NCBI GenBank assembly: GCA_029238785.1
Contig: JAQWFN010000123.1
Span: 1 to 64,000, forward strand
DNA from: Flavobacteriales bacterium
GTDB lineage: Bacteria > Bacteroidota > Bacteroidia > Flavobacteriales_D > Sanyastnellaceae
Direction of reading: 5' to 3'
Length of the DNA: 64,000 nt
This document shows positions 21,650-24,385 of the stretch, piece by piece. Made by a program: the position numbers and the translations under genes. The stretch's first letter is position 1. Every line of letters begins with the position of its first letter. Under the pieces are notes generated by a model. It saw only the letters and a list, made by a program, of their open reading frames with translations, searched no databases and was not told where the DNA came from.

Positions 21650-22753
21650 TTATACAACAACACTTAATGTATAAAACATATCTCCATCATAGGGAGTCAA
21701 GCTATATCGCGGAACTTCTGTACTCGCTTTAGCAATTTGAATCAAGCCTAAACCGGTTCTTGTTTTATCTTCTAAGTAAATACTCTCTTTAATTTTTTCT
21801 TTGTGCAAGATAGCGAGTTCCTCGTACTTCATTTCTTGCAACTCTTTTATCCTCGTACTAAGTTCTTTAGATTCTGTCTCCTCAACCCTATTTCCCGTTT
21901 GTACAAAAAACCTGTCTTTATATCTTCCTATGGTAAAAATGCCATCTTTGGCTCCATTTGTTCCTTTGGCGTGCTTCGCGATATTCTGGAGCATTTCAAT
22001 GAGAACATGTCCCACTTTCTTTGCCAAATAAGCTTCATGTTTGCTCTGACCAATATTGCTTTCAACAATGTTCAATAAAGGTAAAATACTCTTTTGAGAG
22101 AAATCGCCTTTATAGGTCATCATCAAGTCAGACTCTTCTAATTGTTTGTAGAGCGACTTCGTTCTTTCGATTTGATTTGCACCAGTCTTACCGTCTATCG
22201 ACGAAAAGAAAACCTGTTGGTGGAATAAAGCATAATCACCATCTAGTGGTTCAAACTCAACTTCCAAACGATTCCCTGATTTACGCGCGATTTCGATTAA
22301 TCCGAGACCTGCACCGCCCTTATCGCTTAATTCATTATTAACAAGTTGAGCACGATACATTTCTTTAAGTTCTTCTCTTGTTTTTGAGTTGATCAAAGCA
22401 ACTGTTTGACTCAATCCTTCGATTTGATCTTTTCGAACTACATTAATTGAATTGATGAAGTAACTATCACCTTCACTGCGAAAGGTAAACATCCCATCGT
22501 CCAAAATGGTCTCATTTGGATCACGTTTGATTTGTTCGCCATGCTTGATGATATTCTGAAAGCACTCAACAAGAAGAAAAGACACTTTCCTATTCATCTT
22601 TTTTTGCCCTAGATGGTCAGCGATGGTATTCTCACTGATGTCCACAATCCTCTCAGTCAAACCGTCGTGAAACGGACCTCGATAAGAAAAAGACAACTGA
22701 ACATCTTTGACTTCCATATAAACACGAAAAGCAGAAGCAGGGTTTAACTCCAT
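21650..22753 (-). CDS. siaB: SiaB-type kinase with two tandem domains
   Basis: This is a 367-residue protein made of two copies of the SiaB family (DUF6272) domain, about 180 residues each. Copy 1 has SFLLVECFQNIIKHGE (about 56-72) and the glycine loop DKGGAGLGLIEIARKSG. Copy 2 has HVLIEMLQNIAKHAKG (about 240-256) and DKTRTGLGLIQIAKAS. These are the N-box-like Asn and the G-box of a GHKL ATPase fold. SiaB homologues I know are single-domain, so this looks like an internal duplication and fusion. It should phosphorylate the adjacent SiaC protein. The start is ATG 22753, and it is transcribed together with siaC. Confidence 0.85.
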   Translation of the reverse strand: MELNPASAFRVYMEVKDVQLSFSYRGPFHDGLTERIVDISENTIADHLGQKKMNRKVSFLLVECFQNIIKHGEQIKRDPNETILDDGMFTFRSEGDSYFINSINVVRKDQIEGLSQTVALINSKTREELKEMYRAQLVNNELSDKGGAGLGLIEIARKSGNRLEVEFEPLDGDYALFHQQVFFSSIDGKTGANQIERTKSLYKQLEESDLMMTYKGDFSQKSILPLLNIVESNIGQSKHEAYLAKKVGHVLIEMLQNIAKHAKGTNGAKDGIFTIGRYKDRFFVQTGNRVEETESKELSTRIKELQEMKYEELAILHKEKIKESIYLEDKTRTGLGLIQIAKASTEVPRYSLTPYDGDMFYTLSVVV

Positions 22754-22955
22754 TCAATGTATTGTTAGCATTCGAAAAATAACACCATTCAAACCAAAAG
22801 CTGAATAAGGCACCTTTTAATTGTTAAAAAGATCACGTTAATAGACCTGATTAATTGAGCTTGGTGTCTGAATGAATACGTTAAAGAAGGGTTTTTGGTT
22901 TCACCGCAAGAAAAAAGCAATGAGAATTGAGACCAAAACAAAAAGCGCTAAATAC

Positions 22956-23108
22956 AAAAAACACCCTCGTTAGGGTGTTTTTCATGACTTGATTTAACCA
23001 AACTAGAGCTTTAACCATATACTCTAATCATTATTTTGCTTTCGGTTTTGAAACCGAGTGAGTCTTAAATTATGACAATATTTTTGCTACCTGTTTGTCA
23101 TACTAACA
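22956..23108 (-). ncRNA. Candidate structured small RNA or attenuated leader upstream of siaB
   Basis: Reading leftward, a perfect -7 box TACCTTTG (23119-23112) is followed by about 150 bases and an intrinsic terminator at 22982-22957. The interval has two more inverted repeats: TATGACAA/TTGTCATA (arms 23095-23102 and 23071-23078) and TCGGTTT/AAACCGA (23051-23057 and 23042-23048). No reading frame longer than a few codons is present. It could be a free-standing small RNA or a leader that terminates before siaB, whose ATG lies 200 bases further on. I do not recognise it as RNase P, tmRNA, SRP or 6S RNA. The exact 5' end is inferred. Confidence 0.5.
22957..22982. terminator. Perfect 11-bp terminator hairpin, bidirectional
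   Basis: AAAAACACCCT pairs perfectly with AGGGTGTTTTT around the four-base loop CGTT. Both strands have a T tract at the 3' side of the stem. It would end the candidate minus-strand RNA and could also stop transcripts coming from the left. Confidence 0.85.
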
Positions 23109-23111
23109 CTG

Positions 23112-23119
23112 CAAAGGTA
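23112..23119 (-). promoter_or_regulatory. -7 box TACCTTTG of the candidate small RNA
   Basis: A perfect TAnnTTTG followed by CAGTG on the minus strand. No annotated gene starts nearby in that direction, so its target is the hairpin-rich interval to the left. A TTG lies upstream, but at less than the usual -33 spacing. Confidence 0.5.
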
Positions 23120-23246: not shown

Positions 23247-23272
23247 TTGAAGGAGCCAAAATGCCCCTTCAA
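23247..23272. other. Hairpin, inverted repeat TTGAAGG/CCTTCAA
   Basis: Seven-base perfect arms (23247-23253, 23266-23272), plus two more pairs after one mismatch. There is no adjacent T-run, so it is not a standard terminator. Role unknown. Confidence 0.6.
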
Positions 23273-23322
23273 GTTTAGCAATAATTAGACAGGTTATAAT
23301 TTCTTTACTAGTAAGCTTAAAC

Positions 23323-23345
23323 CGGAGCGGCTCACCCCCGCTCCG
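23323..23345. other. GC-rich hairpin, inverted repeat CGGAGCGG/CCGCTCCG
   Basis: Perfect eight-base arms around CTCACCC in AT-rich surroundings. It lies directly after the stop of a short protein-like frame on the minus strand (stop at about 23356-23358). It lacks a proper T-run. It could be a weak terminator or a repeat element. Confidence 0.6.
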
Positions 23346-23887
23346 ACTTATTGCTTTTACTTCAACATCCATTGCGCCTCCATCACAAAGGCATTCACAA
23401 TTGAACAATTCACCAAATCAATGCTATTCAATGGAAGTGTTGATTGTTTGATAGTATTTACGCCCGCAGTTCACGCTTGTTTATTTTTTTCGACAAGGCG
23501 ACGAATAATTTCGTTTTTCGGCACGAAAACAGCTTTTTACCGCACCGTCGCTTATCCCTCATGAGCTGTAAAGAACCTTTTTGAAGTAAATGAGCACTAC
23601 TGACTGCACAGAGCATTTTCTAAAACAAGGGGAAGCTATCAATCACACAAATCTCGCCATCGTCAAAACCTAGCACAGCAAATGTGCTTGATCATAGGTC
23701 TGTCATAGCTGTGGCAACTTGACTGTAAGAAATTTCGTCCGAGCTTCTTTTGCTCCCATCTCAACCATAAATAATTTAGCTTCCAGGAAGCAAGAAGCTT
23801 CACTCATATAGCAAGAAATTTAATTGTTCAGCGATATTCAGCGAAACACCTATTTCGAGATTCACTTTTATGCATCATCTTTGTATT

Positions 23888-23907: not shown

Positions 23908-24094
23908 TTAAGGCTTTAAAAATTGCTGACTCCTTTGTAAGATGCATCATAATTGCAGTTTTTACCTTTTTAAGGAATTCAGTTCAAGTTCAAGAAGTCT
24001 TTAATACATGAAAAAACACCCCTTCTTACTTAAAATACTAGGGTTTTATGTATCTCGCTAACAATTTAAAGAGCCACTTTTGGTTATTTGCCGC

Positions 24095-24385
24095 ATGTCT
24101 ATGACTGATCAAGATTACATCAATTACGTTGGAAAAGCGATAGTACAACGACGCAAAGCACTCGGCTTGTCACAAGCTGATTTAGCTTACCGTGTGAACA
24201 TGGAAGTACCTAACTTGAGTGTTATCGAGAACGGCAAGTCCAATCCACAGGTTTTAACTTTACTGAAAATTGCTTCAGCCCTGGACTCCAATCTTGGAGA
24301 ATTCCTTCCAACTTTGTCGAAACCTCGACAATTTCTGGAACAACCAACAGTTTACATTCCTCAAAGAAGAAAGAAGAAAGCCTAA
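24095..24385 (+). CDS. XRE-family helix-turn-helix regulator
   Basis: This is a 96-residue protein consisting almost only of a Cro/C1-type HTH. Residues 12-68 carry it: IVQRRKALGLSQADLAYRVN, then VPNLSVIENGKSNPQVLTLL and KIASALDSNLGEFL. The basic tail ends QRRKKKA. I place the start at ATG 24095 (MSMTDQDY); ATG 24101 is equally possible. It stands alone between the 1.3 kb non-coding region and a terminator, with no toxin partner, phage genes or methylase nearby. A perfect palindrome upstream may be its binding site. Confidence 0.88.
   Translation: MSMTDQDYINYVGKAIVQRRKALGLSQADLAYRVNMEVPNLSVIENGKSNPQVLTLLKIASALDSNLGEFLPTLSKPRQFLEQPTVYIPQRRKKKA

Follow-up and report, generated by a model that had tools for sequence, protein, structure and literature searches.

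Located between a divergent HTH gene (24080–24385) and a siaB-like gene (22753–21650), a 152-nt element of the minus strand is well supported by genome comparison as a real, free-standing small RNA gene, and it belongs to a set of RNAs with GGUUAA motifs which apparently represents an undescribed small RNA family in Flavobacteriales. The element was found within a stretch of 64,000 nt (the window) from a 3.1-Mb assembly of 132 contigs. The predicted gene (22956–23107, minus strand, approximately 150 nt) is expected to start near 23107–23104, behind a sigma-A type −7 box, TACCTTTG, which is reported in the initial annotation, was read at 23119–23112 and is a perfect match to TAnnTTTG, the sigma-A consensus of Flavobacterium psychrophilum (PMC9723704). 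Taken alone, this box is weak evidence for a promoter since 52 such boxes occur in the window with both strands counted and no TTG lies at the usual −33 spacing upstream of it. Better evidence is given by its being kept as TATCTTTG in a genus mate.

The initial annotation described three hairpins downstream of this box. Hairpins are indeed present, but they form four stems. Hairpin 1 (23071–23102) has 8-bp arms, TATGACAA/TTGTCATA, and the loop ACAGGTAGCAAA, hairpin 2 (23042–23057) has the 6-bp stem CGGTTT/AAACCG within TCGGTTT..AAACCGA, and hairpin 3 (23001–23029) is built around TAGAG/CTCTA with a first GGUUAA motif (23011–23016) in its loop, a layout also seen in relatives from a second bacterial family (f5, see below). 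A second GGUUAA motif (22994–22999, UUUGGUUAAAUCAAG) is single-stranded and is the proposed seed. The last stem is the perfect 11-bp intrinsic terminator already described, AAAAACACCCT-AACG-AGGGTGTTTTT plus T (22956–22982), all of these features being on the minus strand. The folding energy of the RNA is −40.1 kcal/mol compared to a mean of −26.0 for shuffled sequences (z = −3.7), with none of 200 shuffles equalling it.

The element was compared with its counterpart in an uncultured Flavobacteriales MAG (CALKGK010000047.1), the only genus mate, where it lies at the same position with 88% identity overall. The approximately 105 nt of the 3′ side are 100% identical while the flanks on both sides have diverged, and it is on account of this identity inside diverged flanks that the element is taken to be an independent small RNA gene. 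The genus-mate copy folds with z = −4.2. Its hairpin 1 keeps seven of the eight pairs, one of them as G-U, with one pair broken and the loop retained, and its hairpin 2 shows one compensatory change from T-A to C-G together with the loss of two loop-side pairs. A BLASTN search of the whole RNA within the family gave the genus mate as the only real match, a match at L010 being dismissed as it sits in coding-like sequence. At 23310–23480 (minus strand) another non-coding block is shared with the genus mate and conserved, containing GGCGTAAATA-TATCAAACA, TTTGGTGAATTGTT and the strong hairpin GGAGCGGGGGTGAGCCGCTCC; it has no Rfam match and its reading frame is not kept in the genus mate. The terminator-like hairpin at 23272–23247 is not conserved.

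To find relatives, a full-length covariance model (R2) was used, which gave weak but coherent matches in other genera mixed with chance matches to the terminator only (e.g. L067, L068 and L071–L074, which were dismissed). A model of the 3′ module (R3), for which scores below about 37 bits were not trusted, returned matches with E values of 1e-17 to 1e-13 in genus g11, with 6–16 per genome at E ≤ 0.1, and of 1e-9 to 1e-6 in g8, g10, g12, g19 and others, as well as relatives in four genomes of f5, where they form tandem arrays. Within the genomes of a further family, f4, no convincing R3 match was detected, the three that were read (L134–L136) being dismissed as lying inside or adjoining coding sequence. 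The window copy (22956–23030) scores 66 bits, being also a member of the model, and a second clear copy in the same genome (C92:27051–27117), with an ortholog in the genus mate (G001:C8:38107–38172), scores 49 bits; the next best score in 408 kb of this genome is 22 bits. A third candidate of this genome, at approximately 17990–18100 of contig C96, is weak with R3 (19.9 bits) but shows UUUUGGUUAA and a terminator along with a promoter of the ECF type.

Common to these relatives is the presence of UUUGGUUAA, in one to three copies, immediately ahead of the terminator, the loop of which is usually AACG. The set was defined by UUUGGUUAA shortly before an intrinsic terminator with an AACG-type loop, an arrangement which is present in the window copy, and in 400 kb of its genome strict AACG-loop terminators were found only at two GGTTAA RNAs. 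In an alignment of the relatives (A4) the twin GGTTAA motifs are fully aligned, and the terminator stem covaries, with 97.7% of cells paired and two-sided changes at seven of the eleven pairs. Against Rfam release 15, searched with gathering and relaxed thresholds, the window RNA had no match at the gathering score, fifteen relative loci matched only tRNAs, and no earlier description of a GGUUAA small RNA set was found in the papers searched. The earlier remark that the RNA fits no known family is therefore correct for Rfam, although many unannotated relatives exist.

Several of these loci contain repeated units. At L130/L139 (G309:C1:530836–531327), L131, L132 and L133, two or three nearly identical small RNA genes stand in tandem; every unit ends in a terminator of its own, and most units also have a separate ECF-type promoter. 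Locus L289 (G307:C358) holds a diverged form of the family, with two tandem ECF-promoted units ending in CTAATTGGTTAAAA and a hairpin, and L125 (G089:C61:48554–48805), from another genus, holds two tandem copies of a structured form that is longer, with GCAAGCAATTTGGTTAAGT followed by an ACG-loop terminator.

An ECF-type promoter (GTAACC/GAAACC-type, N14–17, CGT) was predicted upstream of 40 of the 88 distinct GGTTAA-terminator units, compared to a mean of 3.3 and a maximum of 10 in shuffled controls, the 88 units not being independent because the g11 copies are close paralogs. The motif also precedes copies of f5, g10, g12 and g19. In F. psychrophilum, ECF promoters are recognizable by a −10 box of CGT, which has been associated with type IX secretion genes (PMC9723704). 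On this statistical showing, many relatives, including one further candidate of the same genome, lie behind predicted promoters of the ECF type. The window copy and that of the genus mate have TAnnTTTG instead of GTAACC/GAAACC-N15–17-CGT.

A promoter of the same type was found for the downstream neighbours, a siaB-like gene (PF19788, DUF6272; 21650–22753, minus strand) followed by a siaC-like gene (PF09345; 21260–21640, minus strand). The start of siaB, which the initial annotation placed some 200 bases further on, is at 22753 and thus 203 nt past the terminator, and the predicted promoter, GAAACC-N16-CGTATT (22875–22902, minus strand), lies between the terminator and the siaB ATG. The genus mate has GAAACC-N15-CGTATA before siaB. 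Such a motif was found upstream of siaB in ten scanned loci (L003, L004, L042, L043, L045, L046, L048, L049, L051 and L052, with the match at L045 starting inside an extended siaB frame) and spans about ten genomes of the family, the genus mate and eight further loci of other genera included. The background for this motif is 14 matches per 128 kb of window strands, or approximately 0.05 expected per upstream region. An ECF-type promoter thus seems to drive the siaB-like genes throughout the family, and siaB is regarded as a separate transcription unit because its own conserved promoter follows the terminator.

To search for possible targets, the pattern TTAACCAA-N5–18-ATGAA was used, in which TTAACCAA is the complement of UUUGGUUAA, with an 8-nt core; the genomes were covered by sampling and pattern searches, and reversed motifs and one permuted motif served as genome-wide controls. 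The pattern was found at 106 sites in 11 genomes, compared to 52 for the reversed and 58 for the permuted motif, and at 16 sites in the genome of the window compared to 3 and 4, with no excess in the genus mate (7 compared to 5 and 7). A few of the sites found with TTAACCAA merely reflect the opposite strand of the small RNA genes. Starts of ORFs with a signal peptide were present at 15 of 30 sampled TTAACCAA loci and at two of 30 for the permuted motif, and this comparison, made under the same filter, is the one to trust since ATGAA itself favors signal peptides. Among 420 permutations in 400-kb samples, TTAACCAA ranked 6th in the genome of the window and 39th in G309, on contigs which were partly known from earlier matches; further contigs were rejected as a control as those with known matches had been left out. 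An unbiased analysis of k-mers at the starts of secreted genes in 400-kb samples found TTAACCAA enriched without being the top word, and therefore only a subset of secreted genes has the motif.

The predicted targets of full length have either T9SS sorting domains (TIGR04183, TIGR04131, PF13585), or a subtilase domain, or a dockerin-like tail. Of the dockerin-tail genes in the 400 kb sampled, three have a start that could be read, and TTAACCAA is present at each of these, while one such gene elsewhere is without it. It should also be noted that large secreted proteins of the genus, at L365, L366, L368, L369, L318, L323, L371 and L372, share the C-terminal tail DxNxDGxVNAxDLLxFLxxFGxxC, which is GC-type dockerin-like (NF041540, below cut-off) and may serve in sorting to the surface. 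At L254 (G000:C89) and L258 (G000:C118) a subtilase gene occurs in two almost identical copies that begin with one and the same leader, TTAACCAAAATAACCAAG, due to either gene duplication or an assembly repeat.

The distance from TTAACCAA to the ATG is tight, with a median of 11 nt, and AACC occurs a second time at 22 of 43 sites. Seven of 23 f5 sites and none of 20 sites of f1 have a T immediately following TTAACCAA (p = 0.01), which agrees with the f5 seed GAUUGGUUAA, and the complement of the f5 seed, TTAACCAATCA, has three matches located 16–19 nt before the ATG of signal-peptide proteins. The window RNA is perfectly complementary over 13 nt (TGATTTAACCAAA) to the start region of a secreted-protein gene in its own genome (G000:C70). 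For most targets its duplex energies are not exceptional; a better fit is given by the C92 RNA, with complementarity over 10–12 nt to eight of nine targets in the same genome.

It is probable, judging from these patterns, that the GGUUAA RNAs are trans-acting small RNAs, often ECF-driven, which pair with the mRNAs of secreted proteins and probably repress their translation. The UUUGGUUAA motifs are the putative seeds and would pair with TTAACCAA where it closely precedes the start codon in mRNAs for secreted surface proteins, most of them exported by the T9SS, and this pairing would block ribosome loading; that the effect would be repression is suggested by the position of the site before the start codon. 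An ECF sigma factor active under envelope stress would thereby lower surface-protein synthesis, and the window copy, with its sigma-A type box, would provide a regulator of this kind in a housekeeping or growth-linked manner. Because UUUGGUUAA matches the start regions of many secreted surface proteins, these RNAs probably tune the content of the cell surface. More tentatively, and with somewhat more doubt than confidence, a whole circuit may be proposed in which an ECF sigma factor drives the multi-copy GGUUAA RNAs together with siaBC, and the RNAs repress T9SS-exported proteins by repeated 3′-proximal seeds without an RRM-type chaperone.

A real small RNA family could also carry GGUUAA as a protein-binding site, acting as a sponge or with a chaperone in the manner of CsrB, with the TTAACCAA sites being a separate translation or DNA element. 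The one to three repeats near the terminator and the conserved hairpin beside them would fit such a site, and the very tight TTAACCAA-ATG spacing could in itself act as a signal for translation. This is considered unlikely, as it leaves unexplained the antisense match of GGUUAA and TTAACCAA, the lineage-matched extension of the core, the complementarity of 10–13 nt at several targets and the doubled AACC motifs at those 22 sites.

The remaining explanations fare far worse. Besides a free small RNA, the initial annotation allowed for a leader in which siaBC transcription is attenuated, as by a riboswitch, and the location of the RNA on the same strand 203 nt upstream of siaB, its perfect terminator and the synteny with siaB kept in the genus mate agree with this. 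Such a leader is nevertheless very improbable given that the conserved siaB promoter lies downstream of the terminator, that the spacer between RNA and siaB is otherwise diverged from the genus mate, that the regions upstream of siaB at 25 other loci, from other genera of the family, yielded no copy of the RNA, and that its relatives stand alone elsewhere, several of them in tandem; the conservation within diverged flanks, the RNA's own terminator and the relatives in many genera favor the free small RNA. A small coding gene or dual-function RNA is highly improbable: short frames are present in the identical part, for example MVKALVWLNQVMKNTLTRVFF overlapping the terminator or MIRVYG, but the fully identical stretch has no synonymous changes and also spans non-coding parts, the frames are not seen in relatives and the terminator falls inside the longer frame. 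As for hairpins and a terminator arising by chance and having no function, the frequency of TAnnTTTG boxes could be brought forward, yet the conservation, the z-score and covariance-model relatives at E values down to 1e-17 make this hardly credible, in keeping with the earlier argument that the perfect arms are not due to chance.

Outside Bacteroides, little is known of how Bacteroidota regulate genes after transcription. If the small RNA reading of the GGUUAA set is correct, then the seed, promoters and targets have been named for a small RNA family linking a stress sigma factor with surface proteins exported by type IX secretion, siaBC would belong to the same ECF regulon, and direct testing would be possible in cultivable relatives.

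The enterobacterial small RNAs MicA and RybB are sigma-E dependent, act at start regions to repress proteins of the envelope or surface, and use Hfq and 5′ seeds. The GGUUAA RNAs resemble them in the proposed path from a stress (ECF) sigma factor to small RNAs that would repress surface proteins, and differ in having unrelated sequence, repeated 3′-proximal motifs and other targets. Within Bacteroides, FopS and GibS are paralogous multi-copy small RNAs with a shared seed, of which FopS binds the start regions of SusC mRNAs and blocks translation; its R1′ seed is 5′-proximal, its promoters are of the sigma-ABfr type and its partner is RbpB (PMC11697453). The GGUUAA RNAs are likewise multi-copy in Bacteroidota, with a shared putative seed, and their predicted targets are also start regions of surface-protein mRNAs. 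Unlike in FopS, the GGUUAA motif is 3′-proximal beside the terminator, many promoters are of the ECF type and the predicted targets are T9SS cargo; the two seeds were set apart by description, with no Rfam match linking them. No RRM_1 (PF00076) protein, as RbpB is, was detected in the genome of the window, the Bacteroides control being positive. The GGUUAA RNAs may work like MicA/RybB and FopS, but they do not appear to be members of either group. There is a weak likeness in layout to BTnc049 (RF04179), which also has hairpins before a terminator, and membership was rejected at 19.9 bits compared to a gathering score of 81.9 (E = 1.4). Compared by description, the GGUUAA RNAs differ from Rfp18 of F. 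psychrophilum (PMC9723704) in that deletion of Rfp18 lowers target mRNA levels and in that R3 had no convincing match in f4 genomes; they are like it in that Rfp18 is a small RNA of flavobacteria which has been connected with secreted proteases and, as a prediction, with an adhesin.
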